39,921 nt of DNA from a virus. A model generated the notes under the pieces. The model was not told where the DNA came from, searched no databases, and worked only from the letters and a program-made list of their open reading frames with translations. This document shows positions 8,071-39,866 of this stretch, in pieces. The position numbers and the translations under genes are program-made. The stretch spans positions 1 through 39,921 of the IMG/VR virus record IMGVR_UViG_3300030099_000838. One strand, 5' to 3'. Position 1 is the first letter of the stretch. Each line of letters starts with the position of its first letter.

Positions 8071-10559
8071 TGACAACACCAGCACGACCAGGTCAGTTTA
8101 CAGGAGCGACAGACAATGAAGCTAACGGTGGTTTATTTACTGACTCAAAAATTGATGGTATACCCGATCTTGTTGCAGCAGACGTTGCATCTGCGCAAAC
8201 TTCTGCAACTAATGCAGCCGCTTCTGCTACTACAGCTGCCACACAGGCAACAACAGCAACAACAAAAGCTACAGAAGCGTCAACTTCTGCAACCGCAGCA
8301 GCTAGTTCTGCAACTGCAGCAGCTACAAGCGCCACAAACGCAGCCAGTAGCGCCACAACAGCTAGCAATGCTGTGTCTTCTGTTAGCACAAACGCGACAA
8401 ACGCTGCTACAAGTGAGACAAATGCAGCAACTAGTGCAACAAACGCAGCAGCTTCAGCGTCTACAGCATCAACTCAGGCCACAAACGCCACAACACAAGC
8501 CAACTCTGCGCTTTCGAGCGCGTCTGCGGCGGCTACTAGTGCCACAAATGCTGCAAATAGCTTCGATAGTTTTGATGATAGGTATTTAGGAGCTAAAAGT
8601 AGTGATCCGTCAACTGATAATGATGGAGATGCGCTAGCTACAGGTGCGTTATACTTTAAAACTGGCGATGGTATGCAAGTTTATACCGGATCTGCATGGG
8701 AAGATGTAAAACCAACTAGCTCTGAACAAACAAATATTAATACAGTAGCAGCAGCTAACTCAAATATTACTGCAGTAGCAGGAAATGCTACAAATATTAA
8801 TACAGTAGGTGGTATTAGCTCTAATGTAACTAGTGTTGCAAACATAGCTAGTGACGTCACATCTCTTGCTAACAGTTTAGAAAAGACTTATACAGTAACT
8901 GTTGTAAATCCTGGAAGTGGTAATTTCTTTTATCTTGATGGTGCTGCTTATCCAGCAATAGAGATGTTTAGAGGTAATACTTATATATTTAATCAAACAG
9001 ACTCAAGTAACGATGGGCATCCACTAGTTTTTAAGAACGGTAGTTCTGAGTATGATGTTGGTGTTTCTTATTTCTTAAACGGATCATCAGCAACAAAATC
9101 AAACTATGTTAATGTAACTACTTTTAATGCTGGTAGAGCTTCGGGAGCACGTAAGATTCAAATAGAGGTGGCCTCTAACGCGCCTAGCAGTGGTTTAAGA
9201 TACTATTGTTACGTTCATGGTAACGGTATGGGTAATACTATTACTGTTAAGGATAGTAATATATCACTAGTTGCTGGGTCTATAGCTAACGTAAACACAA
9301 CGGCAGGATCAATAGCAAATGTAAATGCAGTTGCTGGAAACGCAACTAATATTAATGCTGTAGCAGGTAACAACAGTAACATTACTTCAGCAGCAGGCAA
9401 TGAAACAAACATTAATGCTGCAGTGAGTAACGCAAGTAATATTAATGCTGCTGTAAGTAACGCAAGTAACATCACTGCTGTTGCTGGAAATAGTTCTAAT
9501 ATTAATACAGTAGCAGGAAATAATGCTAATATTAACACGGTAGCTGGTATAAGTTCAAATGTAACTTCAGTAGCAGGAATAGCTTCAAACGTAACAACCG
9601 TTGCAAATAATGTTTCTGGTATAAATGATTTTGCAGATAGATATAGAGTTCAGGCAGGAACACCTACTAGTAATAACGATATTGGTGATTTAGTTTTTGA
9701 TACTTCATCAAACACAATGAAAGTTTTTGGATCGAGTGGATTTCAAAACGCAGGGTCATCTGTAAACGGAACATCCGCACGATTTACCTATAACATTAGT
9801 GGAACTCCAACATCTGTTACAGGATCTGATGCAAACGGAAATAGTTTAAATTATGATGCTGGTTTTGTTGATGTTTATCTTAATGGTGTAAAGCAAGTTA
9901 ATGGTACAGACGTAACTGTTACAAGTGGTGACACAGTTACTTTTGCTTCTGCTCTTGCAAACGGTGATGTAGTAGACATAGTTGGGTTTGGTACGTTTAA
10001 CGTTGCATCAATTAACGCATCAAACATAAATGCTGGCACAGTTCCTATAGCAAGACTTGGAACTTCTGGAACAAAAGATACTACTACATTTTTACGAGGA
10101 GATAATACTTTTGCTGTTGTTGATACAACAAATGCATCTAACCTATCTACAGGAACATTACCAAACGCTAGACTAAGCTCAGTTCCTAACTCAGCATTAG
10201 CTAACTCAGCAATAACTATTAATGGATCATCAGTTGCTTTAGGTGGTTCTGTTACGTTACAAGAAGATTTTGTTTGGGAAATTAAAACAAGTGCATTTAA
10301 CGCAGCAGCTAGTCGTGGATACTTTGTTGATACTTCAGGTGGTGCTGTAACAGCTACTTTACCTAGCTCTGCAGCATTAGGAGATACTATACGTTTTGTA
10401 GATCATACAGGGTCCTTTGATAGTAACAACTTAACTATTGCTAGAAACAGCCACAAGATACAAGGAGATGCAAGTGATATGACAGTAGCAACTGATAGAG
10501 CAGGTCTTGCATTAGTTTACGTAAATGCAGCCCAAGGTTGGGTATTACAGGAGAAATAA
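8070..10559 (+). CDS. Tail fibre protein with repeats and a cupredoxin-like domain
   Basis: An 829-residue fibre component. Residues about 35-165 are an Ala/Thr/Ser heptad-like repeat. Next comes a DDRYLGAKSSDPSTDNDG module, then NINTVAG-type repeats at about 220-270 and 400-515, a second DRYRVQAG module, a beta domain with DVYLNGVKQVNGTDVTV, and a C-terminal beta cap. Inserted at about 272-395 is a beta-rich domain with His317, Cys380, His383 and Met387, the ligand order of type 1 copper proteins (see findings). The repeats suggest a long thin trimeric shaft. The start overlaps the adaptor stop by one base. This is the first gene of a fibre/adhesin array and probably attaches to the tail. 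Binding of copper is inferred from the motif only. Confidence 0.8.
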   Translation: MTTPARPGQFTGATDNEANGGLFTDSKIDGIPDLVAADVASAQTSATNAAASATTAATQATTATTKATEASTSATAAASSATAAATSATNAASSATTASNAVSSVSTNATNAATSETNAATSATNAAASASTASTQATNATTQANSALSSASAAATSATNAANSFDSFDDRYLGAKSSDPSTDNDGDALATGALYFKTGDGMQVYTGSAWEDVKPTSSEQTNINTVAAANSNITAVAGNATNINTVGGISSNVTSVANIASDVTSLANSLEKTYTVTVVNPGSGNFFYLDGAAYPAIEMFRGNTYIFNQTDSSNDGHPLVFKNGSSEYDVGVSYFLNGSSATKSNYVNVTTFNAGRASGARKIQIEVASNAPSSGLRYYCYVHGNGMGNTITVKDSNISLVAGSIANVNTTAGSIANVNAVAGNATNINAVAGNNSNITSAAGNETNINAAVSNASNINAAVSNASNITAVAGNSSNINTVAGNNANINTVAGISSNVTSVAGIASNVTTVANNVSGINDFADRYRVQAGTPTSNNDIGDLVFDTSSNTMKVFGSSGFQNAGSSVNGTSARFTYNISGTPTSVTGSDANGNSLNYDAGFVDVYLNGVKQVNGTDVTVTSGDTVTFASALANGDVVDIVGFGTFNVASINASNINAGTVPIARLGTSGTKDTTTFLRGDNTFAVVDTTNASNLSTGTLPNARLSSVPNSALANSAITINGSSVALGGSVTLQEDFVWEIKTSAFNAAASRGYFVDTSGGAVTATLPSSAALGDTIRFVDHTGSFDSNNLTIARNSHKIQGDASDMTVATDRAGLALVYVNAAQGWVLQEK
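8175..8565 (+). repeat. Degenerate Ala/Thr/Ser-rich coding repeat in fibre gene
   Basis: About 390 bases encode imperfect copies of a seven-residue unit of the form A-T-S-A-T-N-A. The DNA units (built on gcaacaagtgcaac-type words) vary, so this is a protein-level repeat and not an exact tandem array. It is likely to form an extended, coiled-coil-like shaft. Other frames stay open here because of the skewed composition. Confidence 0.8.
8728..9612 (+). repeat. NINTVAG-type fibre repeats, two blocks
   Basis: Units of 10-12 residues such as NATNINTVAG, NSSNINTVAG and NASNITAVAG occur in a short block at 8728-8875 and a long block at 9265-9612, with the cupredoxin-like domain between them. The spacing and Asn/Val positions suggest a repeating beta or trimeric fibre element. 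DNA identity between units is moderate, as expected for an old repeat under selection. Confidence 0.8.
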
Positions 10560-23562: not shown

Positions 23563-24288
23563 ATGGCAGTAGGTTTTAGAGGCAGTTCTTCATTAGGAGG
23601 ATCAACAGGTATAGATTTTGATAGTGATTATTTTGATATTCCAGTTACTCCGTTAAATAAAATAGTACCAAGAACAGACTACTCAGCTCCAGTAACGGGT
23701 GGTAATGAAGTAGCGTTAGGCAATACTTTTGATTCTGCTGCTTTTAATCAAAGCTATGATGTACCAGTAATAGATCCTGCTATGTATGGTAGTTCTATAA
23801 TGGACCGTAGCGAAGGACCTCCCATGTTATCCGAACCCGATTATTTTACCAAGGGTAAAGTTTTAACGGAGCAAGATATACAAAATTATTTAAATGATAC
23901 TGAAGGTTTTGTATATAATCCAAGCACAAATAACTTTGAAGGTGCCGGAGATTATACATACCCACTAAGTAAAATAGCTCCCGGTTATTCTGATACACAA
24001 GAAAAGCTTATGTTAGGTATAAAGCCAGGTGTAACAACTGGTGATCAGCTAAGAGATATAGAGTTAAATAGATTAAATACACAAAAGCTAGCATTTGAAG
24101 TTCCTATGGGTGAAGGTGTGGATATGTTTGATAATTATAATGAAGCCTATACAGGATTTGACAGCTCAGGAAATTTTACAGGAGCTCCATTGGATCTTGG
24201 TACGCAAGCTATGAATGATATACCTGACTACAGTCAACCTACACAAAGTGTATTTGATGAAGGTGGAGCTTTTGGAGGAAAACAATAA
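23563..24288 (+). CDS. Putative virion protein, low-complexity (241 aa)
   Basis: Polar and rich in Asp, Gly, Tyr, Ser and Pro, with repeated SDYFDIPVTP / SYDVPVIDP / SEPDYFTKG-like phrases that suggest an extended, poorly folded protein. It has no membrane segment and no enzyme motif. It sits between two ejection-type genes with a one-base overlap to the next. It could be an internal or linker component. Function unknown. Confidence 0.5.
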   Translation: MAVGFRGSSSLGGSTGIDFDSDYFDIPVTPLNKIVPRTDYSAPVTGGNEVALGNTFDSAAFNQSYDVPVIDPAMYGSSIMDRSEGPPMLSEPDYFTKGKVLTEQDIQNYLNDTEGFVYNPSTNNFEGAGDYTYPLSKIAPGYSDTQEKLMLGIKPGVTTGDQLRDIELNRLNTQKLAFEVPMGEGVDMFDNYNEAYTGFDSSGNFTGAPLDLGTQAMNDIPDYSQPTQSVFDEGGAFGGKQ

Positions 24289-27260
24289 TGCAGCTTAAAA
24301 AGTTTACAAGAAAAGACCGACATGGGAATATGATGTCTTTTGAATTTGACGTACCGCAAGCTAATGTACCTGCTATGCAATCAATTCCTATGTATGACCA
24401 TCCAGGCGAACCTAAAGGTACAGATACCGTGCCAGCTTGGCTTACACCCGGTGAGTTTGTAGTAAACAAAGAAGCCACAGAAATGTTTGGTCCTACAATA
24501 AAAAAGATGAACGATATAGGTAGGCAAAAACAAAATCAAAACAAAGCTATGTACGCACAAACAGGTACAGAAGTACTATCTCGTGGCTTATTAGATGAAG
24601 ATGAAGCATTCCAAACTCAGCTTAATAAAATGCTAGACAAGTACGAAGGATCAGAGTTTACTAAAGATAAGCTATATAACATTATAGATGGAGAAAGTAG
24701 CTTTGACCCTACTGTTAAGAACAAAGAAAGCAGTGCTACTGGTTTATTTCAGTTTACTGATACTGCTATAAACGATTTAAAAGATCAGGGTAAGATAGAT
24801 AAAGACTTTACTACATCCGATGTTGCAAGTATGAGTCCCACTGATCAATTAAAACTGTATGAAACATACTTAGACAGATGGAAGTATGGTGGAGATGCGC
24901 ATTTAGGAATTATGCAAGCAGCTCCTGGTAAATATTTTGAAAAATTTAGAAGTGGTGATAACAAAGGAGACTTAAATCAAGAGGTTTTTGCTAAAGGTAG
25001 TGACAGCTATGAACGAAATAAAGTTTGGGCAGGCGATGATGGCAAAATGACTTTTGCTAGTATCTCAAATTACTATGATAGTAGAGCTAAAGATAAAATA
25101 CCTGGTGTTACTGTGGCAAAACTTCAACCAGATACGTCTGCTAGCCCTACACAGGTGGCCGCTGACGCGTCTTCAGTACCTTCTATGAATATAGGTATAC
25201 CGCCAAGGGACATGTCCTCTATGGAGCCGATTGCAGGGCCAAGTTCTGGTAGAATTGCTAGAGTTATGGGTAATAGACAGCCATCTAATGAGTATACTAA
25301 CTTCCTTAGAAACTTAAATATAAACAAAGGGGTTATGCCTAACAGAAATGTTACGCTAGATACAAGACAAATACCTGGTGTAAACCCAATGTTAGACATA
25401 AATAAACCAGCTGGCGTACCGATACCTACAGGAGTAGTTGATGGTAAGCGTGTAGCGTTAACACCTGAATATTTAGATGCAATGCAAGATAATGATATGG
25501 GTGGATTAGGGGCAGACTCGCAAGTATTTAAAGATTTTGTTGGTAGTAGGTTAAGAGTGCCTGTAACTAAAGCGCCTCCTAGTCAAGTTATACCTAAAGT
25601 TTCAGAGATTGCTGATATACCAGGTGTTGCAACTGTACCAGATGAGCAAAAGAGAGGTCAAACGCGTCAACGATATGATCTATACGAAGGTACAGACAGA
25701 CCAACAAGTCAACAAGAACTTGATCGAAGAGCTATGGAAAACTTTAATCCTCCAGAACTAGATAGACTTGTTGATAGTATGCAAGCAGATATTAATAAAC
25801 AAAATGCACCACAGTTTTTAAGTGATGACGAAATAAAAAGATCTGAAGGTCTTGGTAAAGAGATTCAAGCTATTGATGATTTTGCTAGAAGAGCTGGTAA
25901 ATATTTAGTTAGCCCTAAAGAGTTTAAAAACGAAAGAGGTCTTACAGGTAAACAAGAAGAAAAGGCACAAGCAGATTTAGCAAAGATGGAAAAGCTAGAG
26001 CCTATTGAGAAAGGCTACGATCAAAAACAAAGAGTTGCTACAGAAATAGAGAAACAAAACAAAAATCAAACAGGGCCTGGGCCAGATCAGCCAGGTAATA
26101 ATGCTGATCCTGATACTGTTAAGAACACAGGGTCTAATGCTCCTGCTGCAGAACAAAATAAAACAACTAGTTTTCTAAAAGGTTTGTTTGGTAGCTTGTT
26201 TGACACTGATGAACTAAAGCGTATGGCTGTAATGTATCTTGGTTCTAGATTAATGGGCTATAGTCATGGTGGTAGTTTAAGTTTTTCTGTTAAAAACTAC
26301 TTACAAAGAGTTGATGCTAAAGAAAAGGCTGCTGTAAAGTTTGCAACAAGCGCGGGTGCAGCTAAAGCTTATACTGCTAAGTCACTAGCTAAGTATGCAA
26401 AGAGTGGTAACATAACAGATTTAATTCCGTTACCTAGACAGCTCATATCTACAGGAAATGCTACTACTTTCTATGGTAATAAAAACGGCAAAGACTTTAA
26501 AATACAAGTTATGGAGTATAAAGCTGGTGCAGGAGATAACGCTCCTAGAGTATTTTTAGATAAGTTTGGTAACGAGCATAACCCTCTTGACTATGACTTA
26601 GATCCTATATATAATAAAAACAGCCCTAAACATAGAGATGCTTTAGACTCATACACAAAAACTTTTGCAGATGTTATGACTTCTGTTAGAGAAAAAGTTA
26701 GTCTTTTAAGTATAGATAAAGGAAAGAAAACGTATGTAGACGATGTAATTCCTGCAACAGATGCTGGAGCTGTAGCATCTTGGGCATTAGATAATAAAGT
26801 AGAACTACCTAGAATGCCTCAGTTAATTGAGTTAGCTTACAGAGATATGGTAGAAGATGCAGGTAGAGGATACAAAGCTACTAGTATTGTTGGCTATTTA
26901 GATTCTCTTAAAATTAGAGAAACTATTTTAGATGGTACAGAAGCAGATAGACTATTTAGATTAGAGCCTGATACAGAGCAAGAAAAAGCTAGAGGTTTTG
27001 GTAAGCCTGTTGACGCTAAAGAGTTTACAAGGTTACGAGATAACGCAGTTAGATGGTTAAGAATTACTAAGCCTGAGCTATCTGGAATACCAAATCAAGA
27101 AGTAGCTATAGGAGCTTTTCAAGAGCTAGTAAGTCAATGGAATACTTTAACTGATGAGCAACAAGCTCAATGGAATAAGAAGGCTTCTAAAACAACAACT
27201 GGTTTTATGGAATGGTCTAAAGCATCTATAAACAATGTACTTAGCACAATGGTGGATTAA
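24288..27260 (+). CDS. Internal virion protein with lytic-transglycosylase-like domain (990 aa)
   Basis: Residues about 36-80 carry GTDTVPAWLTPGEFVVNKEA, a phrase I recall from many phage tape-measure and internal proteins. Residues about 115-240 look like a soluble-lytic-transglycosylase fold: candidate catalytic Glu136 in DGESSFDP, then SSATGLFQFTDTAINDL. This combination should cut peptidoglycan to let DNA cross the wall, as T7 gp16 does. A long Gln/Pro/Lys-rich linker (about 270-640) leads to a helical C-terminal third with a YSHGGSLSFSVKNYLQR segment. It is followed by the nuclease-domain and polymerase genes (one-base overlap with the first). Activity depends on Glu136, which is intact. 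Confidence 0.72.
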   Translation: MQLKKFTRKDRHGNMMSFEFDVPQANVPAMQSIPMYDHPGEPKGTDTVPAWLTPGEFVVNKEATEMFGPTIKKMNDIGRQKQNQNKAMYAQTGTEVLSRGLLDEDEAFQTQLNKMLDKYEGSEFTKDKLYNIIDGESSFDPTVKNKESSATGLFQFTDTAINDLKDQGKIDKDFTTSDVASMSPTDQLKLYETYLDRWKYGGDAHLGIMQAAPGKYFEKFRSGDNKGDLNQEVFAKGSDSYERNKVWAGDDGKMTFASISNYYDSRAKDKIPGVTVAKLQPDTSASPTQVAADASSVPSMNIGIPPRDMSSMEPIAGPSSGRIARVMGNRQPSNEYTNFLRNLNINKGVMPNRNVTLDTRQIPGVNPMLDINKPAGVPIPTGVVDGKRVALTPEYLDAMQDNDMGGLGADSQVFKDFVGSRLRVPVTKAPPSQVIPKVSEIADIPGVATVPDEQKRGQTRQRYDLYEGTDRPTSQQELDRRAMENFNPPELDRLVDSMQADINKQNAPQFLSDDEIKRSEGLGKEIQAIDDFARRAGKYLVSPKEFKNERGLTGKQEEKAQADLAKMEKLEPIEKGYDQKQRVATEIEKQNKNQTGPGPDQPGNNADPDTVKNTGSNAPAAEQNKTTSFLKGLFGSLFDTDELKRMAVMYLGSRLMGYSHGGSLSFSVKNYLQRVDAKEKAAVKFATSAGAAKAYTAKSLAKYAKSGNITDLIPLPRQLISTGNATTFYGNKNGKDFKIQVMEYKAGAGDNAPRVFLDKFGNEHNPLDYDLDPIYNKNSPKHRDALDSYTKTFADVMTSVREKVSLLSIDKGKKTYVDDVIPATDAGAVASWALDNKVELPRMPQLIELAYRDMVEDAGRGYKATSIVGYLDSLKIRETILDGTEADRLFRLEPDTEQEKARGFGKPVDAKEFTRLRDNAVRWLRITKPELSGIPNQEVAIGAFQELVSQWNTLTDEQQAQWNKKASKTTTGFMEWSKASINNVLSTMVD

Positions 27261-30200
27261 TGGCAATATCAGCTGATAGAGTAGCAGAAAGGTTATTAGG
27301 TAAAGATCTTAATGACGATTATGCTTTTATTGACGGAGATACTCTGGCTTCTACTAGTGAAGTAGATCAATATGGTAATCCATTAAAGTTTAGAATGAAA
27401 GGCATAGATGCGCCGGAAGTTACAAAAGTATTTGGTGCTGATAACGTTGCATTAGGAACTGCAGGATCTGAAAAAGCTAATGAAGCGCTAATGCAGTTAG
27501 CAAAGAAAGAAGGTTTTACTAACGTATTTCGTACAGGTAAGTTTGATCCTAATGGTCGTGAGCTAATAGATTTACAGGATGACAAAGGTAGAAGTTGGGA
27601 ACAAACGTTAGTAAGAACTGGTGTATTAAATCCTACTAGATATTCTTCTGAAGGTGCAATAAGATCCTATAAAGCAGCTCAAGCACTAGGCACTGACGGT
27701 CTAGGAGAAAACTACGACTTAGCAAGAAACGTTATTGCAGAAGCTATAGCTGATGAAACAAAGTATGAGCAAAGATTTAGACAAAAAGCTATAGATGAAA
27801 CACAGCTTGCATATACTGGTGGCCTATACGCTTCTAATAACGTTATGTTTAGAGATCGATCGAGAGATTTTGAAAACAAAGCTATGAGTCCTTTTTCTAC
27901 AGCTTGGGATATAGGTCTTACTGGCGCTATAGAAGGATTATATGGTGCTGTCGAGCTTATAGGAGAAACTTCTGGTTGGGACTGGGCTAAAAACGTAGGT
28001 GAAGCTGGTATATATAGAGCTAGAGAAAAGCTACAAAAGAATCCTGAAGTAGTTACTAGTTATAAAGATATTGATGGGTTCTTTGGTAAAGAAGGATTCT
28101 TGCAATATGTTGCTAACAACGGTGCTATATCTTTACCTTATATGGCAGCTACTATAACTGGTGCAGTTGCTGCTCCTTATGTAGGGGCTAGTGCGTTAGG
28201 TGTTGCAGCCACAGGTGCTGTGTTATCTCCTGTTGCTTTATATACAGGTACAATATGGAACGACCAAGAAGGTGATAATAAAAATGCTTACTTAGCTGTA
28301 GCCGGTGGTGTATCGCAATCTGTATTAGATAGATTAGGTCTTAGGTTTTTGAATCCAGCTGCATTGTTAACTAAAGAAGGCAGACAACAAGCTATTACAG
28401 CCATGACAAATAATGCTGATGACGTAGCAGGTAGAGCGATGCAAGCTAGAAATAGAGCTTTATTTGGTAGAACTATTACTAGCGAAGAAGATGCTAGAAA
28501 AGCGTTGCTAACATTATCAAGACAAGAAGTAGCTAAATACGCTGATGATGCTGCAAGATTTGCTAAGAATCAAATTACTGCTAGAAACGTGGCTAGAAAT
28601 CAATTAACTCGTATTGCTAAAGCAGGTGCTGGTGAAGGTATAACAGAAGCTTTACAAGAAGCTATTGGTTATACTGCTGCACATACTGCTAATGGTTTTA
28701 GAGACTGGGATGCTAATGAGTTTAAAGATAGACTTATAGATGCTACTATTGCTGGTACATCTCTTGGTGGTGCTATATCAATACCAGGTGGTGTATACGA
28801 TTATGGTGCATGGGTAGATGTAGCATACAGAACTGGGCCAGATACAGGTCGACAAACGTCTGATATGGGTAGATTAGCACAACAAGATATAGAGGCTAAT
28901 GGTCAACAGTATAATGTACAACAAGAAAATGCAAGAGTAAAAGCTGCTACAGATAATATTAATCAAAGAGTAGAAGCACTACAACAAAGATTATCAAATA
29001 GACGATTAAACAGAAGAGAAAGACAACAAGCAGAATCTGAGTTAGCAGAGCTAGGTGGCGTAGATCTTAACGATAGAGCTGATGCACACGTAGCGGCTAA
29101 ACAAGACAGAGCTGTAGGTCAAATTGCTAAAGACTGGTGGAAAGGTATACCTGGTTTATGGCGAGGTATGACTAGATTTATGTTTGATAACCAAGGTGGT
29201 ATACAACAAGACTCTGTAACTGCTAGAATACTAGGTGAATCTGTAGGATCTAACTTACAACGATCTGTTTCTGGTGAAACATATGAAAACAGAAAACATA
29301 ACTTAATTTCTGAGATTAAATACAGACTAGGAGATGTGTCAGATTTACTTGCTGCGTTTGGTAGAACTGATAAACGTAAATCTAGATTAGAATTTAGTGA
29401 GCAATACTATGAAGTATTTGAAGCTGCAAGATCTAGAGCAGCCAGAGAAAATAGAGATATAAACTGGGATATAGACTTACCTGAAAACTTACAACCTTTT
29501 GCTAATGCTTTTAGAAATTTTCATAATAAACTTATAGAAACAGGTGACAGACTACATAACATGCAAGCAGTTCATAATCCTGAACTAGGTTATGTAAATG
29601 ATTATTTATCTAGGTATAAGTCATTAGATAAACTAGCTATAGAAAACAATAGAGCTGAGTTTGAATTAGCACTTACTAACATTATTAATGACGAAGGTCA
29701 ACAAGTACTTACACCACAAGCAGCTAAAGAACTTACAGATCAAATACTACAAATAGATGGAGCTGATGTTCCTTCTAACTTTACACTTGATGGTGGGTTT
29801 TCTGTTACTGACAGATCTACGTTTAGACCACAGTCGCATAGAGGTAGAACATTAAACCTTTCTGATAGAGCAGAGTTTAAGCAGTTTATGGAAAGAGATA
29901 TATTTACTAACGTATCTAATGCTGCTAAGTCTGCTGTAAGATATACAGTATTAGAAGAGTATGTAGGTAGTAACAATGCTAAGCTTAATTATAGATTAAA
30001 TAAAATAGAAGAAGAGCTTATAGAGTCTGGTAAGTATACTGTTGATGAAGCAAGAGCTAGAGTTAATAAACTTGCGTTTGATCTTAAAAACTACTTTGAT
30101 GCTGAGTCAGGTAACTACAAGAGAAACATACCACCTATACTTAGGCATGCACAAAAGAACATATTATTTGTAACTACTATTACTGGTTTGCCACTAGCTA

Positions 30201-31354
30201 CACTATCTAATTTTGTTGAGCTAGGTTTAACTAGTGTTGGGCTAACACAAAAACAAATTTTTGGTGAGAAAGGTAGTATTAACTCTATAGCTAGATCGTT
30301 TGCAGATGAGTTTGGAAATACTGCTAATAGATTGTATGGTACTATAGCTAACCAACCAGCACCACATAAAAGAGGTAGGTTTGGTCATGCTATATTAAAG
30401 AAGCTAGGTTTCTTTGATTGGGAAGTTGGTGCTGCTCATACAACAGGTGTTAGTGAAACAGGTAGATGGCACCAAAGAATACTTGATATGTACTTTAAGA
30501 CTATCTTATTACAACAATGGACTAACGCTGCACGTGCTGCAAGAGCTGCTATAGCTTTAGATTACATTAGTGATAAGGTAGCTATAATGGTAGCTGCAAG
30601 ACAAGCAGATATAACAACTAACGAGTCTCGAGAAGCAGAAGAGGGGCTAAGAAACTTAGGATTAGACACACAGTTTTTACTTAGATACCATACTGGTTTT
30701 GTTAGAGACGAGCAAACAGTATTACCTAATCAAGATGTAAGACAGCAGTGGGAAAGAATGATTAATGATGCTACATTTAACTTTATAAATGAAGCTGTTG
30801 CATTACCACAGTCTGCAAACAGACCTTTGATATTTCAAGATCCAAGGTTTGCTTTGTTTACACAGTTTCAAGGTTTTATAGCTACGTTTACTGCTAACCA
30901 TATACCTAAAATGTATACTCAGTTAGCTAAACGTGGTACTCCAGCAATGAAATACAACATATTTGCTACAGTATCTACAATGATACTATTAGGATTTGTA
31001 TCTCAACACCTAAAAGATTTATTAAAGTACGGAGAAACTACACCTTACTTTAAAGGTATGGAGTATATTAGAAGAGGGGTAGGAGCTAGTGGACTACTAG
31101 GTACAAGTGAAAGAGTTATTGACTTTGTTTTCCCAATGTATGACAAAAGATATGGCTCAAATGTAGAATGGTTCTTTGGTACAATAGCTAGTGAATCAGC
31201 TGGTGTAAGTAAAGCACTTAGAATAGGTGATATAACCGCTGATGTCATAACAGGAGAAAAGCCACCAGAAACTATAGTTAAAGTTACACCGATAGCACAA
31301 GTTGCTTATCAACAAATAGATAAACAAGCTTATAAATGGGGTTTTGGAGAATAA
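27260..31354 (+). CDS. Large ejection protein with N-terminal staphylococcal-nuclease-like domain (1364 aa)
   Basis: Residues about 20-150 match the thermonuclease fold: D25-G-D27-T, then R45-M-K-G-I-D50-A-P-E53, then NGR100-EL and a LVRTGVL helix. These correspond to Asp19, Asp21, Arg35, Asp40, Glu43 and Arg87 of staphylococcal nuclease, with identical Arg-Asp-Glu spacing. Around residues 285-330 are hydrophobic helices (SLPYMAATITGAVAAPYVGA and more), and a further membrane-like segment lies near 1240 (IFATVSTMILLGFVSQHL). The C-terminal part, with FALFTQFQGFIATFTANH, resembles large internal virion proteins of T7-like phages. I infer ejection into the cell with an active nuclease head. It lies between the transglycosylase-domain gene and the putative virion RNA polymerase. 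Confidence 0.75.
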   Translation: MAISADRVAERLLGKDLNDDYAFIDGDTLASTSEVDQYGNPLKFRMKGIDAPEVTKVFGADNVALGTAGSEKANEALMQLAKKEGFTNVFRTGKFDPNGRELIDLQDDKGRSWEQTLVRTGVLNPTRYSSEGAIRSYKAAQALGTDGLGENYDLARNVIAEAIADETKYEQRFRQKAIDETQLAYTGGLYASNNVMFRDRSRDFENKAMSPFSTAWDIGLTGAIEGLYGAVELIGETSGWDWAKNVGEAGIYRAREKLQKNPEVVTSYKDIDGFFGKEGFLQYVANNGAISLPYMAATITGAVAAPYVGASALGVAATGAVLSPVALYTGTIWNDQEGDNKNAYLAVAGGVSQSVLDRLGLRFLNPAALLTKEGRQQAITAMTNNADDVAGRAMQARNRALFGRTITSEEDARKALLTLSRQEVAKYADDAARFAKNQITARNVARNQLTRIAKAGAGEGITEALQEAIGYTAAHTANGFRDWDANEFKDRLIDATIAGTSLGGAISIPGGVYDYGAWVDVAYRTGPDTGRQTSDMGRLAQQDIEANGQQYNVQQENARVKAATDNINQRVEALQQRLSNRRLNRRERQQAESELAELGGVDLNDRADAHVAAKQDRAVGQIAKDWWKGIPGLWRGMTRFMFDNQGGIQQDSVTARILGESVGSNLQRSVSGETYENRKHNLISEIKYRLGDVSDLLAAFGRTDKRKSRLEFSEQYYEVFEAARSRAARENRDINWDIDLPENLQPFANAFRNFHNKLIETGDRLHNMQAVHNPELGYVNDYLSRYKSLDKLAIENNRAEFELALTNIINDEGQQVLTPQAAKELTDQILQIDGADVPSNFTLDGGFSVTDRSTFRPQSHRGRTLNLSDRAEFKQFMERDIFTNVSNAAKSAVRYTVLEEYVGSNNAKLNYRLNKIEEELIESGKYTVDEARARVNKLAFDLKNYFDAESGNYKRNIPPILRHAQKNILFVTTITGLPLATLSNFVELGLTSVGLTQKQIFGEKGSINSIARSFADEFGNTANRLYGTIANQPAPHKRGRFGHAILKKLGFFDWEVGAAHTTGVSETGRWHQRILDMYFKTILLQQWTNAARAARAAIALDYISDKVAIMVAARQADITTNESREAEEGLRNLGLDTQFLLRYHTGFVRDEQTVLPNQDVRQQWERMINDATFNFINEAVALPQSANRPLIFQDPRFALFTQFQGFIATFTANHIPKMYTQLAKRGTPAMKYNIFATVSTMILLGFVSQHLKDLLKYGETTPYFKGMEYIRRGVGASGLLGTSERVIDFVFPMYDKRYGSNVEWFFGTIASESAGVSKALRIGDITADVITGEKPPETIVKVTPIAQVAYQQIDKQAYKWGFGE

Positions 31355-31355
31355 C

Positions 31356-34300
31356 ATGGCAACAAGGATAAATCCACAAAGTGGTTTAATGGAATTTGTA
31401 AAAGAACGAGAAGCTACGGGGGCTGTTTTAGATGAAAGACTTAGAAACAAAACACCCGTAGAGTCTTTACAACAAGAAGGCCCTGCAACTTTAGCCGTAA
31501 AACCACAACCTATACGTCCTACACCAGCACCTTTTGTTTTACCTGAAGAACAAAAAGGTAGAGTAGATCAGACAGCAGCTAGAGATAGGTTTGCACAACA
31601 AATAGCACAACAAGATGCTGCTAGACTTGCTCAAACGGCTGAGCTACAAAGAGAAGCTGAAAGAGTAAAGCCTATTAGTGAAATAGAGCCTGATGTTAAA
31701 GAGTTTGATGCTTACGAAAATGATGGTTTTGGCGAAGCTATTACGAGATCTAATAAATACATTCAGCTACTTTATGATAAGCTAGAATCTGGTGCTACAG
31801 TTACAGGAGCTTACTTATCACCAGCTCAAGGACTACCTATAGCTGCAGGCTTATCTCCTGTAGAAGCCGGAGAAGCTTCTGGTCAGTCAATAAACGTTAA
31901 CTCTACAAAAGGTATACTGTTTGATCCTAAAGGATTTAATGCAGGTAAAATAAGAGGTGATGATGTAACTCAAGTAGATCCGTTGTTTGCTAGAGTTATG
32001 TCTATTATGACTGAAAGGTTTATATATCAAAATCAGTACAACGCTAAACCTGATCAGCAAACAGATAATACAGATGATTTTACTGAAGCGACTTTACGTG
32101 AAACAGATCAAGTAAAACTAACAGATGAAGGTAAATTAAGACGTGGTTTAGGTAACCAACAGTTAGGTAGAGAAATATATAGAGCTTGGAAACGTGAACA
32201 AAACATAGCTCAAGGCAGACCTTCTGATGAGTACACTATGAAAGGTGTAACCGGAGATCAGTTTGAAACAATAGGTACGCTTGCAAAAGAAATGTATCAT
32301 GCTGCTAATCCTGAATTATATAATAGAATATCAGATTCTTTTAACAGAACAGTAGAATATGAGCTTACTACTACCGGTGCTGCTGCTATGGAGGCTGCTG
32401 AAAAAGCTTCTCCTGCTATATTTACTGGTTATGAAATAAAACCTTCATCTGCTCCTAGATCTAAGTTAGCACTTACTGAATCTGGGTTAGGAGAAGGAGC
32501 TAAGTATAGAAAAACTAAAACTACTTCTGTTGTAGATCGTAAAATGGCAGAGATAGAGGAAGCTGCAGAGAATATGCATAGCGTTGCTCATGGTGTAGAT
32601 CCTCTTAGAAGAAAGCTTTATATACAAATAGCCGTACAAGTTCTTACTGGTATGAAAGATAGAACTAGGCCACCTGAACTAGGCGACTTACTTAAGATAG
32701 GTCCAGCTAAGTTTATAGCATTTAAAGGTGAGTATGCTAAAAAGCAACAAGACGATCCTAATCCTGATTATAATCCTGCATTTGAAATGGAAAAGCAAGT
32801 TACTAGGTTTATAGAAAGTTTAAACACTATTGGCACTTATAGTAATAAAGCTAATCATTTAGATTTTGCCGTGCAAGAACTACAAAGTCGTATGCATGCT
32901 ACACAAACAAGATTTAATCCTCAACTAGTTCCGTGGATTAGGTTTGTAACAGGAGGTATTAGACCTCCTACTGTAAATCCTAATGCTAATACTCCTGCAA
33001 CAGTAATGTTTAAAGAGTTAATGGCAAAACATTTTTTACCAGGTGCGGATAAGTTACTTCCTGAAAATAGAGTTGCTGCATTTGATACTGAATGGAACAG
33101 CCCTAACCATGGCGCTTTTGCTAATATTGTTGCTGATGGAAAAGGTATAGCAGATAGTTTACTAACGCCTGAACAAGATCAAGATGCTATAACAAAGCTA
33201 AAACAAATAAAGTTAACAGAAAAAGGAGTTACTGTACCTCCTGAGTTAGCTAATATACCAAGACTAACAATTGGAGATTCATTAAAGAGTAAAGCTATTG
33301 GTGAAGAACTAGAAGGCTTAAACTTAATTGAAGCTGCTCATGAGCTATATCAGTTTGATAAAGCACAAAAGAACAACACAACGTTTAAGAGCAATATATC
33401 TGTAGAACTAGATGGTAAAACTCATGGACCAGCTAGTAACCTAATGCAATTAGGATCTATGAAGGCTGCATTTAGAGCTGGTGTTTTGAGAAGAGAAGGA
33501 GCTACTAAAAACTTAGATACTATACCTATAAAAGAATTGTATCAAGGAGCACAAACAGACGACGAGTTAGCTGCTGGTGATATTAGAGATGGTATGAAGT
33601 ATTTCATGGAAGAGAATGGTGACAAACATGCTCAAAACTATTTACCTAATAACGCAGCTTCTGCTCACTTAGTTAGTATACTTAAGTTAGCTTTAAAAGA
33701 TAGGGACAACTTTCTTAAAAAGCCACCTATGACGCTTGCTTATGGTCAGTTACTTAAAAACTTAGATGCTGCTATATATGAAACAGTATTTACTGGTCCT
33801 CAGTCTGTAGCAATAAGAAACATTATAAACGGCAACTCAGATTTACCTTCTATATTAGATAAAAAGATACAACAAAAGATGGATGCAGAAGGTGGAATGC
33901 TGATACCGTCTAGAGAAGATATGGTAGTTGAGTTCTTACACGATATATTAGCAGACTCTATTGATGCTGAGTTAGATCCAGGTGTCGTACAAGTAGGACA
34001 ACTACTAAGAGCAAACAATGTTGTTGCTATGTTATCTGATGAGGTTATAAAAGTTAAGAATGCTATAGGTATTGACAACTACATTGGTGCTAAAAGCTCT
34101 GTTATGAAAGATGTAGAAGGAAATATTGGTGTAGTATTCGGAGATACTTCTAATGTAAAGAGAGCAGGTAACGTACCGTTGTATAGAAGTATGCCTTCAG
34201 GTAGTGCTATAAGAGAAGGTAAGCCCGGTGGCTGGGGTAGAGGTAGAATTATACCTGCTGTTATCCAAGGTATAGATGGTGCCTGGATGAATAGAATGTT

Positions 34301-34931
34301 TACTGGTAAATCGTTTGCGCAGTTAAAGCGTAACTACATGCTACCTATTATGGATGCTGTTAAGACAGATCTAGATGGAGCAGCAAAAGTACGTGATCTT
34401 GCTAATAAAAATTGGTGGGATGTTATCAACGAGTATTCTTATGTCGACAGTATTATGGGAGACTGGACACCCGGAGCTATAGAAAGGTTTAGAACCAAGC
34501 TCAAAAATATCGGGGATACTAAGGTTGAAATAAGTATGGATAATGAATATAGAGGATTTTTCTTTCTATTACATGATCTTGAAAAAACACCTCCTATTTT
34601 TGATTCGGGTAATCTTATAAAAACTTTGTATGATACTATGGAGCACCCTCCTAGAAAACAAGGAGTAGCCGTTGGAAAATACGAAGCGTTTAAAAAATCT
34701 AGAGCAGCAAAAGCTGCAGATAAATTACTTCCTAATGCTGCAAGAGCACAAGGAAGAACGTTAAATGAACTAACTGGTGATCAAATGTTAAGATTGTTTG
34801 ACAATATTATAGGACCTAATGGCTTAAACCTTGAGTCGCGCAATCGTCAAACAATGAAAGATGTCGGTGAAGCTAAAAATAAACTTACGAGAGCCGCTAA
34901 GGGCTCCCGTATATTGCAAATAGATATGTAA
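31356..34931 (+). CDS. Putative virion-associated single-subunit RNA polymerase, N4 vRNAP-like (1191 aa)
   Basis: I start at ATG 31356, six bases after GGAG at 31346-31349. Motif A is ISVELDGKTHG with Asp686. Motif B is LKKPPMTLAYG with Lys788, Tyr796 and Gly797; the eight-residue Lys-Tyr spacing and MTLAYG equal T7 Lys631-Tyr639. Motif C is PAVIQGIDGAWM and then LPIMDA with Asp1000. A DxxGR-like ELQSR (508-512) followed by FNPQ (520-523) aligns without gaps with the same region of the T7-like polymerase encoded at 35114-37477. Both catalytic aspartates are present. About 190 residues follow the last Asp, nearer to N4 than to T7. Residues 1-120 are Gln/Ala/Glu-rich and may serve packaging. 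It is last in the ejection gene run. Polymerase activity and virion location are inferred. Confidence 0.78.
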   Translation: MATRINPQSGLMEFVKEREATGAVLDERLRNKTPVESLQQEGPATLAVKPQPIRPTPAPFVLPEEQKGRVDQTAARDRFAQQIAQQDAARLAQTAELQREAERVKPISEIEPDVKEFDAYENDGFGEAITRSNKYIQLLYDKLESGATVTGAYLSPAQGLPIAAGLSPVEAGEASGQSINVNSTKGILFDPKGFNAGKIRGDDVTQVDPLFARVMSIMTERFIYQNQYNAKPDQQTDNTDDFTEATLRETDQVKLTDEGKLRRGLGNQQLGREIYRAWKREQNIAQGRPSDEYTMKGVTGDQFETIGTLAKEMYHAANPELYNRISDSFNRTVEYELTTTGAAAMEAAEKASPAIFTGYEIKPSSAPRSKLALTESGLGEGAKYRKTKTTSVVDRKMAEIEEAAENMHSVAHGVDPLRRKLYIQIAVQVLTGMKDRTRPPELGDLLKIGPAKFIAFKGEYAKKQQDDPNPDYNPAFEMEKQVTRFIESLNTIGTYSNKANHLDFAVQELQSRMHATQTRFNPQLVPWIRFVTGGIRPPTVNPNANTPATVMFKELMAKHFLPGADKLLPENRVAAFDTEWNSPNHGAFANIVADGKGIADSLLTPEQDQDAITKLKQIKLTEKGVTVPPELANIPRLTIGDSLKSKAIGEELEGLNLIEAAHELYQFDKAQKNNTTFKSNISVELDGKTHGPASNLMQLGSMKAAFRAGVLRREGATKNLDTIPIKELYQGAQTDDELAAGDIRDGMKYFMEENGDKHAQNYLPNNAASAHLVSILKLALKDRDNFLKKPPMTLAYGQLLKNLDAAIYETVFTGPQSVAIRNIINGNSDLPSILDKKIQQKMDAEGGMLIPSREDMVVEFLHDILADSIDAELDPGVVQVGQLLRANNVVAMLSDEVIKVKNAIGIDNYIGAKSSVMKDVEGNIGVVFGDTSNVKRAGNVPLYRSMPSGSAIREGKPGGWGRGRIIPAVIQGIDGAWMNRMFTGKSFAQLKRNYMLPIMDAVKTDLDGAAKVRDLANKNWWDVINEYSYVDSIMGDWTPGAIERFRTKLKNIGDTKVEISMDNEYRGFFFLLHDLEKTPPIFDSGNLIKTLYDTMEHPPRKQGVAVGKYEAFKKSRAAKAADKLLPNAARAQGRTLNELTGDQMLRLFDNIIGPNGLNLESRNRQTMKDVGEAKNKLTRAAKGSRILQIDM
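34889..34908 (-). terminator. Possible leftward terminator inside the polymerase gene 3' end
   Basis: GAGCC at 34891-34895 pairs with GGCTC at 34902-34906 around a six-base loop, with one more pair beyond a mismatch. Read leftward, the hairpin is followed after about six bases by TTTATTTTT. It lies just beyond the last leftward stop (34932), so it could end that operon, while in the rightward direction it is coding sequence without a T-run. The stem is short and the T-run offset, so this is tentative. Confidence 0.3.
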
Positions 34932-35113: not shown

Positions 35114-37477
35114 TTATGAAAAGAAGTAGTCGCTATCTTGTATAGCTTCTACATCTAACTCCCCTAGTTTATAGTTGTAATTAAAGTTTTCAGGTTCTAG
35201 CAATAGCATTTCTGCTATATCCTTATAGAAATCCTTATGATTGTACATTTTAATGAACACTTCTTTAGTTAAACTTAATAAGCTAGCTACATCACAAGCG
35301 TGAGTAGAAAATGAATCATGAATTGCAGCAAAGTCACCGTCCCAATGATGGATAATAAGTGCCATATGAGCTGCGTCCATACTATGTATGAAGTTAGGGC
35401 TTATACCTGATGCAAAGCCACCAGGACTAGGTATCTTTTTACCATACACTAGCCTATGTTCTTTGCCTACGTGTTGTATCCTCATATCAGAGATCCAGCT
35501 TTTCCACTTTACGTCTTCCATTACGTAGTTTTCATAACGTACTGGGAAGCCGGAAGGCGTAGTCCATTCGACAACTGGCTCTTTCAAGTCAGATATTATG
35601 TGATTTGCTATTGCCTGTAGGTAACTCATAGTCTCGAGTGGACCTGGACACACCTCATCTATAGCTTTTATTAAGTTATATGACAAGTCGGTACAGTCAC
35701 TCATAGTAATATCGTACTTACTATGGAATCCTTCGGCATAACAATCAGCATACATGTTCAAAGCTATGGCTAAGTGGCCCGCAGAGTACGCTCTAGTCAT
35801 CGCTCCGCGTTTCGATATACCTTTCCTTATGTGTTTCATAGGCATGTCTCTCTGCGCGAACCAGTCAGGTACGCGAGATATCAATGCTTTAGCTGTTTGC
35901 ACATAAAAGTCCTTAGGTATATCAGTTTTTACTAAACCTACTAGCTCACCTGCCTTTTTATCCTTAGATATAGCAGCAAGGTGTTGCCAACCATTATTAG
36001 AACCATCAATAGGAATAGGTAGGCTTAAGTAATACACGCCACTTTCCTCTTTTTGATCCCATAAACCACACCACGCTTTACAACAAGCAAGAAAGCTTAC
36101 GCCTTTTTCTGCTTTGTCGTGTATAGTACGGTTATTCCAGGTGTTTCTAATGAAATCCTCATTATGAATTACCCATTTTACCCTATCATCGATAGTCATT
36201 TTGTCGACTGATATGTCTGTAAGTCCTTCATCTTCAAGATGTGACTTGTAATCAGCTTCACACCAGTCAGGTATGTTATCGATAGTATAAGATTGGTTGT
36301 ACGTACAAGCCGTATGTACAGCAAAATAGTATAAACCCTCTTCAGTCATCGGTTTTGCATTAGCAAATTTGAGTAGACCACGTTCCATATCTTTACCTTG
36401 ATAGTTTAAATATGACTCACGGTAGTATAGCCTGCCACGATAGTCTGCATCTACATACTGAAAGAAGACTTTATCCTTTAATGCTTCGGCTTTCTGTATA
36501 GTCATGTTGTATGCATCAAACTTACTACGGTTTTTAAGTAATACTAACTTAGCATTCCAGTGAGTAGCAGCTTCATCATACTTAGCCTGAGCTTTTTCCA
36601 ATAGCTTTTTGTTAGGCTTATTACGTAGCTTGTTAGTTAAACGTCGTAACTCGCTGTAATATTTCTTTTCCAAAGACTTATTGCCTAACTCTGGTTTAAA
36701 GACGGTATTATTCCAGTATAAGTCTTTGCCTTGTAACTCATCGTTGTTACCAAAAATGCAGTAACGGTAGTTCTTACCGGTCTCATCTGATACCTTTAAG
36801 GTTTCAGTTACAAACTTACGTTTGTTTTTCTTTACTGCTTCCAAGATGTCGTTATCAATAGTCCATGCTGTTCGTTGCAGCTTGTTTATTGCATTAACAA
36901 ATGGTTGATCTAACAGATCCTTGAAATCTTGGTCCTTATCATATCCCCAATGCTTAATAACAGGATGTCCGTTTTCCTGAAACAAATGATGGACACGATT
37001 AATTTTAGTAAATGAGGTATTTTGTATTAGTTCATTGACTACATCAGACGGTAATGATCCTATTTGTAACCACTTATCTGATGTTTCAATCATGTACGGT
37101 GCCCGGCTAAATGGCTTTTTACCTACCGGGTTTTTCTCCCATTCAACTTGCGCTTCAGTAGGAGCTCTAAATATTTTTATGTAACCACATTCATAAAAAC
37201 CTTCTAGAACTAGGTCGCCGACTGTTACGTCGGCTCTAAATCCTAGCTCTACACCTTGTCTTAATAATACGTTTTTGCCTATTGCAACTGAAGCTGCAGT
37301 AAGTTTACACGTAGCTGACTCAGATGTAGACGTTTTTCTAAAGTGATATTGTAGTATAGTTAATGCATCATACACCAGCTGTTTCGGCTGTAACTCGTGC
37401 TCGAGTACTAGCTTCACTGCCCACCTTTGAGGCGTGCTGAGTATCTTCTGCTCCAGATAATCTATTATATTCTGCAT
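35114..37477 (-). CDS. T7-like single-subunit DNA-dependent RNA polymerase (787 aa)
   Basis: All family motifs are present: D345-x-x-G-R349 in DADYRGRLYY; motif A LPIPIDGSNNGWQHL with Asp491; motif B ISKRGAMTRAYSAG with Lys556 and Tyr564; and motif C PNFIHSMDAAHM and AIHDSF with Asp721. The end DSDYFFS resembles the T7 C-terminal foot. It is about 100 residues shorter than T7 gp1 (883 aa), mostly in the N-terminal promoter-binding part. Ser565 replaces the Gly that follows the sugar-discriminating Tyr in T7. It should transcribe phage genes from its own promoters, and late genes are the obvious target. An AAGGAG site lies upstream of ATG 37477, inside the GIY-YIG gene, which overlaps it by 110 bases. 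Confidence 0.93.
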   Translation of the reverse strand: MQNIIDYLEQKILSTPQRWAVKLVLEHELQPKQLVYDALTILQYHFRKTSTSESATCKLTAASVAIGKNVLLRQGVELGFRADVTVGDLVLEGFYECGYIKIFRAPTEAQVEWEKNPVGKKPFSRAPYMIETSDKWLQIGSLPSDVVNELIQNTSFTKINRVHHLFQENGHPVIKHWGYDKDQDFKDLLDQPFVNAINKLQRTAWTIDNDILEAVKKNKRKFVTETLKVSDETGKNYRYCIFGNNDELQGKDLYWNNTVFKPELGNKSLEKKYYSELRRLTNKLRNKPNKKLLEKAQAKYDEAATHWNAKLVLLKNRSKFDAYNMTIQKAEALKDKVFFQYVDADYRGRLYYRESYLNYQGKDMERGLLKFANAKPMTEEGLYYFAVHTACTYNQSYTIDNIPDWCEADYKSHLEDEGLTDISVDKMTIDDRVKWVIHNEDFIRNTWNNRTIHDKAEKGVSFLACCKAWCGLWDQKEESGVYYLSLPIPIDGSNNGWQHLAAISKDKKAGELVGLVKTDIPKDFYVQTAKALISRVPDWFAQRDMPMKHIRKGISKRGAMTRAYSAGHLAIALNMYADCYAEGFHSKYDITMSDCTDLSYNLIKAIDEVCPGPLETMSYLQAIANHIISDLKEPVVEWTTPSGFPVRYENYVMEDVKWKSWISDMRIQHVGKEHRLVYGKKIPSPGGFASGISPNFIHSMDAAHMALIIHHWDGDFAAIHDSFSTHACDVASLLSLTKEVFIKMYNHKDFYKDIAEMLLLEPENFNYNYKLGELDVEAIQDSDYFFS

Positions 37478-38260: not shown

Positions 38261-39866
38261 CTCCTTTCTCTAGTCTACCAGTATGTTGGTTGTATTTGCT
38301 GTTGCCAGCTGGTCCTGTTAAGCCGGTATACCTAGATTTAAGAACTGAAAACTGAATCTTATTACGATCAGATTCGTTTACAGCTACTAGGTTTCTTGAA
38401 AAAGCAATAATATCAAATGATATTTGTTTAATACTACCGCTGCCTTTGATGTCGTCGATAGAAGCCATGTTGCCTTCTTCGAATGCACCGCCGCCTGACT
38501 TACGTAGGTGGCTTACAATACCCAGCCATACGTTATGCTTCTTTACTACCTTTAGTAAATCACTCATAACTTTATCTACTGCTTCATTACCTGATAGTCC
38601 TTCACTACCTTCTGATACTGCAATAGTAATATGGTCTAGAAATAAATACTTGCATCCCATAAGAGCCATGTACTCTATCTTATCTATTAAAGAGCTATCA
38701 TCAACAGAGCCTTGATGGTCTAGTAATATAAGTCGTTCATCACTAAACACAGATTCAAAGCCAATGCGTAGTTCTTCTGCAGTAATAGGTATATCACCAC
38801 CAACACGTTTATTAAGAGGCATACCAATAAACTTTTCAGCTGTGTCACCTACGCTTTCTTCCAAAGATATAAGACCAATACGATCTACTTGAGTTGTACG
38901 AAGTAAATGCCATACAATCTCTTTGATGACGGTAGATTTACCTGAGCCTGTGCCACTAGTAAATAAAGTAATTTCACCTTGCCTCATACCTTTAAGCTTT
39001 TCGTTAAGACCATTTAGGCAAGGAGGATAAGGTATTGACTCAGTGTTTTGCCTTTCTATAAACTTATCCCATATAGGTTCACCACTAAGTATGCCAGCTG
39101 GATTATACTTTTGTGCATTCCATATTACGTTAGTAACTTCTTTTGCACCATGTTTCATGTATAAATCACTAGCATCTTTCTGGTCTGATGATACTACTTT
39201 TACTTTATCAAAGCCAATAATTTTACTAGCTTCAGTTATAGCTTTGATACCAGCTTTGTCATTATCAAACCATAGTATAACAGATTCAAATCGTCTAATC
39301 CATTCACGTTGTTCTAACAATACTTGTAGCTGGTTAGCAGACGGTATAGATACAACAGGATATATTCTCTTGTTAAAATCTAAGCAAGCTTGTGCTACTG
39401 TTAGTGCATCTATTTCGCCTTCGGTAATGACTAGCATTCTGCCGCCTGTAAATTTATCTTGACCAAAAAGCTTTTTAGCTTTGCCAATCATTCTAAACTC
39501 TTTAGGTAGTATACGTATCTTGTAGCAATCATCTCCATATGGATAGAAATGTGCTGGCTTATCATCGTATTGATGTGTCTTAACACCAAAGTATTTAGCT
39601 ACATCTTCCGAAATATTTCTGCTAGGCATACCAAAACAAGGATACTTATGAATATCGAGGACGTCCAGTTGTCCATTATTATTTGTATCGGCATTGGGTC
39701 CATTACTAGTTACTCCTTTTACTTTTGTAAATATTTTCGCATCTTCATTACGATACGTCCCACATGCGAAGCAATATGTGTGATTGTCGGTAGAGTCAAA
39801 CATCACACCATCAGAGCTTCCACAATCTTCGCAAGGATAGCGCTTATTGTCTACATAGTTGTTCAA
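38241..39866 (-). CDS. Primase-helicase, T7 gp4-like (541 aa)
   Basis: Zinc-binding primase start: Cys12, Cys15, Cys32, Cys35 in YPCEDCGSSDG and HTYCFACG. TOPRIM domain: Glu149-Gly-Glu151 with Asp153 (ITEGEIDALT), and Asp201-x-Asp203 (WFDNDKAG). Helicase: Walker A SGTGSGKST (304-312), Walker B YLFLDHITI, and a SHLRKSGGGAFEEG loop typical of DnaB-like hexameric helicases. Length is close to T7 gp4 (566 aa). It primes lagging-strand synthesis and unwinds the fork. The start is TTG 39866, supported by GGAG seven bases upstream and by no in-frame ATG before the zinc finger. It is the first full gene of the leftward arm in this window. Confidence 0.92.
   Translation of the reverse strand: MNNYVDNKRYPCEDCGSSDGVMFDSTDNHTYCFACGTYRNEDAKIFTKVKGVTSNGPNADTNNNGQLDVLDIHKYPCFGMPSRNISEDVAKYFGVKTHQYDDKPAHFYPYGDDCYKIRILPKEFRMIGKAKKLFGQDKFTGGRMLVITEGEIDALTVAQACLDFNKRIYPVVSIPSANQLQVLLEQREWIRRFESVILWFDNDKAGIKAITEASKIIGFDKVKVVSSDQKDASDLYMKHGAKEVTNVIWNAQKYNPAGILSGEPIWDKFIERQNTESIPYPPCLNGLNEKLKGMRQGEITLFTSGTGSGKSTVIKEIVWHLLRTTQVDRIGLISLEESVGDTAEKFIGMPLNKRVGGDIPITAEELRIGFESVFSDERLILLDHQGSVDDSSLIDKIEYMALMGCKYLFLDHITIAVSEGSEGLSGNEAVDKVMSDLLKVVKKHNVWLGIVSHLRKSGGGAFEEGNMASIDDIKGSGSIKQISFDIIAFSRNLVAVNESDRNKIQFSVLKSRYTGLTGPAGNSKYNQHTGRLEKGDGFEII

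Follow-up and report, generated by a model that had tools for sequence, protein, structure and literature searches.

A compact relative of the N4 virion RNA polymerase, and DNA hairpins in the early arm, of marine phages outside the Schitoviridae

Virion RNA polymerases (vRNAPs) have been described as restricted to the Schitoviridae (PMC12633501). The window, by which we mean the whole stretch of DNA analysed here, is a 39.9-kb phage fragment carrying a portal protein of the SU10 type, its nearest isolate by portal being roseophage CRP-7 (53% identity), and it raises the question of whether an intact 1191-aa reading frame with zero internal stops encodes a polymerase of this kind in a phage that does not belong to that family. 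A sequence-only reading had proposed a cryptic N4-type vRNAP, encoded as the last ejection gene of an otherwise T7/P22-like phage. The placement held, the gene lying directly after two large Cys-free genes and closing the late arm; the T7/P22-like label was only loosely right, given the portal type and the nearest isolate. The genes concerned, in window coordinates, are the following:

24288..27260, plus strand: putative ejection protein, 990 aa, SLT transglycosylase domain, no Cys
27260..31354, plus strand: putative ejection protein, 1364 aa, partial match to a virion-structural PHROG, no Cys
31356..34931, plus strand: vRNAP-like single-subunit RNA polymerase gene, 1191 aa, Cys-free
35114..37477, minus strand: T7-like RNA polymerase, 787 aa, phrog_414 E 1e-102

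The last two genes are convergent, and the T7-like RNA polymerase (RNAP), matched in 17 of 18 records carrying the vRNAP-like family, is likely a second phage polymerase newly made in the infected cell. An IMG/VR contig, G001, represents the same phage (99.96-99.98% identity across the whole window); it spans 55,997 nt with a 98-nt end repeat and is therefore an apparently complete genome of ~55,898 bp. Its two arms both start at ~38.7 kb, the minus-strand arm carrying early and replication functions, among them a single-stranded DNA-binding protein (SSB), nucleotide kinase, thymidylate synthase, DNA polymerase, exonuclease and primase, with the T7-like RNAP last, and the plus-strand arm carrying the structural genes, with the vRNAP-like gene last. 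As a separate observation, two 113-bp repeats (74% identical) occur at window positions 8760-8872 and 9495-9607, within the tail gene 8070-10559.

The active site was examined by aligning 25 family members, 16 Schitoviridae vRNAPs and 14 T7-like enzymes together (55 sequences in all), which placed the following elements in the 1191-aa protein:

32889..32891, plus strand: Arg512, at the position of the DxxGR arginine of single-subunit RNAPs (ssRNAPs); R in 55/55 aligned ssRNAPs
33405..33428, plus strand: motif A, ELDGKTHG, residues 684-691, with catalytic Asp686; D in 55/55
33702..33749, plus strand: motif B / O helix, residues 783-798, with Lys788 and Tyr796; K in 55/55, Y in 54/55
34251..34289, plus strand: IPAVIQGIDGAWM, residues 966-978, counterpart of the helix that precedes motif C in T7; aligns with vRNAP MPLLVQSVEAAM
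34341..34358, plus strand: motif C, LPIMDA, residues 996-1001, with catalytic Asp1000; D in 55/55
34914..34928, plus strand: C-terminal LQIDM, near-constant as LQID(I/M)G among close family members in the alignment

Arg512, Asp686, Lys788 and Asp1000 are thus invariant, and the single departure at Tyr796 is a Phe in one vRNAP. Motif A fits the E-x-D-G-x-T-[HN]-G pattern of the N4 vRNAPs, whereas Arg783 lies at -5 from Lys788 instead of the -4 found in T7 and N4. The open reading frame and all the motifs singled out by the sequence-only reading were confirmed at the places given, namely ELQSR/FNPQ with Arg512, ELDG with Asp686, KKPPMTLAYG with Lys788 and Tyr796, and, at the residues given above, IPAVIQGIDGAWM and LPIMDA with Asp1000, as did its motif spacings of 110 and 204 when recomputed. 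The C-terminal LQIDM could possibly be a counterpart of the T7 C-terminal foot, which is only an inference. The computation therefore shows an ssRNAP with an intact set of active-site motifs, in phages that also encode a separate T7-like RNAP; its activity is inferred.

Conventional searches placed the protein only in part: Pfam gave no match, searching the PDB by sequence with the protein or with a 4-row profile returned nothing useful, and a search of the genome contigs found no relative. The PHROG 'virion RNA polymerase' matched it at motif A (E 5e-6), and its matches in the phage database were 12 records, all from N4-like phages and most labelled vRNAP or RNA polymerase. Relatives in IMG/VR fall into two clades, ~40-75% and ~20-25% identical, with lengths of ~1,100-1,600 aa across the family, so that the 1191-aa protein is not a giant. 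A 19-row family profile compared with 16 Schitoviridae vRNAPs gave P 7.2e-14 and kept the motifs in register, all of 20 column-shuffled control versions giving P > 0.46, and the family profile gave P 2e-7 against T7-like RNAPs. In the tree the close and distant family clades are united (support 100) with the Schitoviridae vRNAPs beside them, and the T7-like set, neighbour gene included, stands apart, the join of the family with the Schitoviridae vRNAPs having a support of 82. The Schitoviridae set (plus the split gene of L078 described below) has a support of 99 and leaves the 1191-aa protein outside. These separate clades show that the protein's lineage is sister to the Schitoviridae vRNAPs and that it is not a member of that family; BLASTP, profile and tree all speak against a grouping with T7-like phage RNAPs.

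Two further sets of sequences were observed along the way. A 1,102-aa vRNAP-like protein (L044:1018-4323, L053, L131, L145; vRNAP profile E ~1e-10) forms a lone branch in the tree, and in L078, L125 and L139 a vRNAP-like gene that groups with the Schitoviridae vRNAPs is split across consecutive frames (1,519 + 375 + 1,244 aa in L078).

Structure prediction on the full-length protein with only 4 sequences yielded no usable AlphaFold model (pLDDT 34). An AlphaFold2 model of residues 380-1191 built on a 32-row alignment reached pLDDT 86.9 and pTM 0.85, and its top Foldseek match was the N4 mini-vRNAP (3c46, E 5e-11), followed by N4, mitochondrial and T7 RNAPs intermixed. The VIA-align Z scores were practically tied, at 23.2 for the N4 mini-vRNAP (over 590 residues), 22.0 for the mitochondrial and 21.7 for the T7 enzyme; the fold therefore identifies an ssRNAP, and the vRNAP side of the assignment rests on sequence and tree. 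A confident match to an unrelated structural family would have refuted the N4-type reading, and none appeared. Profiles, fold and phylogeny together thus support that reading, pointing to an ssRNAP nearest to the N4 vRNAP.

Packaging into the virion can only be inferred, no proteomics data being available, and it is supported by gene position and by the absence of cysteine. Neither the 1191-aa protein nor the two preceding ejection-type proteins contain Cys. Among the 31 other sequences of the family alignment 29 are also Cys-free, as are all 16 Schitoviridae vRNAP fragments; the T7-like RNAP encoded in this genome, by contrast, has 12 Cys. It should be kept in mind that recognition of an ejection-type operon with the two further proteins rests solely on gene position, protein size, the SLT domain and the missing Cys.

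If the enzyme acts as in N4, whose vRNAP promoters are known to be DNA hairpins (PMC4496689), comparable structures could be expected before the early genes. The window itself holds none of the hairpins described here for G001, whose early (minus) strand carries six perfect hairpins with shared loops and varying stems (G001 coordinates, sequence scan):

35761-35777, 36546-36562, 36736-36752 and 37328-37346, minus strand: four hairpins, loop ACAAG
30548-30566, minus strand: hairpin, loop ATAAA, before the DNA polymerase gene
38473-38495, minus strand: hairpin, loop ATAAA, at the start of the arm

The stems of the ACAAG hairpins include CGCGAG/CTCGCG, TGCCAG/CTGGCA and AGCCCAG/CTGGGCT, and the six sites lie ~28-76 nt before start codons, most of which have a ribosome-binding site. 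Related genomes showed comparable sets:

G006: eight hairpins, ATAAA/ATTAA loops, most followed by (T/G)CTAATAATAT
G004: four hairpins, loop ATAAA
G013: four hairpins, loop ATTC, three convincing
G008: hairpins with ATAC and ATTC loops, mostly followed by a CCTTAATA-like sequence
G002: five hairpins, loop AGAA, about three convincing

Across genomes the hairpins, most of them ~27-80 nt ahead of a start codon, have a genome-specific loop, compensating changes in the stems and, in several genomes, a conserved element 3' of the hairpin; the evidence is weak or limited to a single site in G002, G003 and G005. Counted over eight genomes, the early strand bears 34 perfect hairpins and the opposite strand 3, with ~0.3 expected. 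The loops in this count were chosen after seeing the data, and the less biased control is therefore the shuffle test, in which 4-6 hairpins share one loop in G001, G004 and G006, versus at most one in 100 shuffles. Stems with G-T wobble pairs stay at chance level (3 vs 2.3 expected), a result that fits hairpins formed in DNA better than hairpins formed in RNA. When applied to N4, the scan picks up two of its hairpins, both with loop TCC, at 557 and 4546. No hairpin family turned up in these scans in cultured CRP-7 or in the records of the distant clade.

Other regulatory signals were also sought. Sigma-70-like sites in the early region occur at chance level only, so that host promoters can be neither claimed nor ruled out. 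The terminator scan of the early region was likewise at chance level, and within the part of G001 that it covered none of the hairpins was called as a terminator; for most hairpins a terminator function was rejected because no T run follows them. Repeated 12-mers that could be T7-like promoters were absent from G001. A repeat, CTCTAATAGGAGACA, was noted in G002 (L154-L156) at 9978, 12801, 13334 (minus) and 49140, and is possibly a promoter of the T7-like RNAP. A Gp2.5-like SSB gene was also observed directly behind one hairpin (L152:16000-16500, corresponding to G001 36000-36500, minus), and equivalent sites are present in G004, G006, G008 and G013. In N4 it is the SSB of the host that stabilises the promoter hairpins.

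Which of the two phage polymerases would read the hairpins can be approached by comparing genomes. Between G001 and G008 the T7-like RNAPs are 99% identical and the vRNAPs just 47%, and the hairpins are not alike, the same spot before the DNA polymerase gene having loop ATAAA in the former and ATAC in the latter. In G004 and G013, with T7-like RNAPs 99% and vRNAPs 47% identical, three corresponding sites have ATAAA in the former and ATTC in the latter. The kind of loop is thus not tied to the T7-like enzyme, and the vRNAP is the natural candidate for reading it, an inference made without transcription data that does not exclude other factors varying between genomes. More broadly, T7-like RNAPs are 98-99% identical within G001/G005/G008 and within G004/G013, the adjoining vRNAPs only 47-75% (L151-L153, L222, L223, L221, L157-L159); the vRNAP gene appears either to be exchanged or to be diverging much faster than its T7-like neighbour.

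We consider it likely that the 1191-aa protein is a compact vRNAP using DNA-hairpin early promoters outside the Schitoviridae, with packaging, ejection and transcription being inferred. A few copies would be packaged and ejected together with the two other ejection proteins, the hairpins would extrude from the incoming DNA, and the vRNAP would recognise loop and hairpin and transcribe the early arm, including the SSB, DNA polymerase and T7-like RNAP genes, the T7-like RNAP afterwards transcribing the remaining genes. Absence of Cys and the early-arm hairpins support the ejection and early-transcription role put forward by the sequence-only reading, of which packaging and activity remain inferences. 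Several observations weigh against the overall scheme. The enzyme lacks the additional large N- and C-terminal regions of the N4 protein, regions that are implicated in ejection and autoinhibition. G001 has two loop types (ACAAG in four hairpins, ATAAA in two) despite one vRNAP. The scans gave no hairpin family for CRP-7 or the distant clade, and the VIA-align scores hardly separate the N4, mitochondrial and T7 enzymes.

The alternatives differ in how much of this scheme they would retain. A catalytic vRNAP-type enzyme could be made late and remain unpackaged within the cell, serving for instance in late transcription or replication priming; the gene lies in the late arm and presence in the virion has not been shown, but it sits right behind two Cys-free ejection-type genes, Cys is almost wholly absent across the family as in the N4 vRNAP, and an enzyme made late would come too late for the first transcription from an early arm bearing hairpins, so that we regard this as very unlikely. 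Still less probable is a protein that derives from a polymerase but has lost its activity and serves merely in ejection. The third ejection protein of T7, gp16, illustrates that such a protein need not be a polymerase, but the catalytic residues are invariant in 25 members from two deep clades whose remaining sequence falls to ~20% identity.

More room is left, within what is still unlikely, for a true vRNAP accompanied by hairpins of another function, for instance as structures in RNA leaders, as processing sites or as sites used by the T7-like RNAP. Hairpins also precede several middle genes such as that of the DNA polymerase, and the two loop types of G001 fit this possibility; against it stand the near absence of G-T wobble stems, the lack of T runs and of terminator calls already mentioned, loops that differ where T7-like RNAPs are 99% identical, and a layout the same as that of N4 promoters. 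A recent duplication of the neighbouring T7-like RNAP, suggested by adjacency and common superfamily, is all but excluded: BLASTP found no similarity between the two, and the hypothesis was rejected with the genes on opposite sides of the longest branch of the tree.

Returning to a compact vRNAP, a marine-phage relative of the N4 enzyme with matching early-gene hairpins implies that N4-style start-up transcription is probably not limited to the N4 family. A small vRNAP relative with hairpins outside the Schitoviridae may have been described earlier beyond the open-licence literature searched. An IMG/VR survey of N4-like viruses with vRNAP profiles dropped proteins < 2,500 aa (PMC10654107), and length filters in surveys hide compact enzymes of such kind. 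It is tempting to go further, and we lean towards a bolder reading in which infection by marine phages outside the Schitoviridae is widely started by a second lineage of vRNAPs a third as large as that of N4, polymerase and loop co-evolving and being exchanged as a module to give natural orthogonal promoter/polymerase pairs. If the vRNAP outside the Schitoviridae holds up, ejected polymerases with DNA-hairpin promoters would be a broader strategy, with a compact version that does without N4's giant flanking domains and in which ejection and the recognition of hairpins would be simpler to study. Its various loops would provide ready-made pairs for dissecting specificity, and a marker of early promoters in uncultivated phages.

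Among known systems, protein size, helicity and missing Cys led to a vRNAP being proposed in StenR_269 and Zobellviridae-like phages (PMC10747016); the putative StenR_269 enzyme is also Cys-free and outside the Schitoviridae, its proposal being made without catalytic motifs or promoters in the relevant sections (PMC10747016). CRP-7 (MK613349) shares gene order and T7-like RNAP, and encodes at the same position a Cys-free 1,235-aa 'hypothetical' protein, gp33 (L006:9360-13067, minus), whose profile similarity is not significant (P ~0.13), only a motif-C-like stretch aligning (VIQGGDSTIM...IHDALIT); gp33 may represent a third lineage of vRNAPs, still more remote, in a phage that is in culture. 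T7-like phage RNAPs, including that at window 35114-37477, share superfamily and catalytic residues with the 1191-aa protein but are far from it in profile and tree, are made in the infected cell and, in the window phage, are Cys-rich; known T7-type promoters are duplex DNA. With N4 gp50 and the Schitoviridae vRNAPs (mini-vRNAP PDB 2PO4, 3C2P, 3C3L, 3C46) the likeness extends to the ssRNAP fold and active-site residues, the motif A E-x-D-G-x-T-x-G, the absence of Cys, a gene encoded with two other ejection-type proteins, and perfect-stem DNA hairpins upstream of early genes, known in the new phages by sequence only and with their function inferred. The new family differs in its size of ~1,100-1,600 aa, without N4's large terminal regions, versus 2,842-3,820 aa in the Schitoviridae (PMC10654107), in hairpin loops of 4-5 nt (ACAAG, ATAAA, ATTC, ATAC, AGAA) versus 3 nt in N4, and in genomes of ~56-60 kb that carry a full-length T7-like RNAP where N4 has instead its two-subunit RNAPII.
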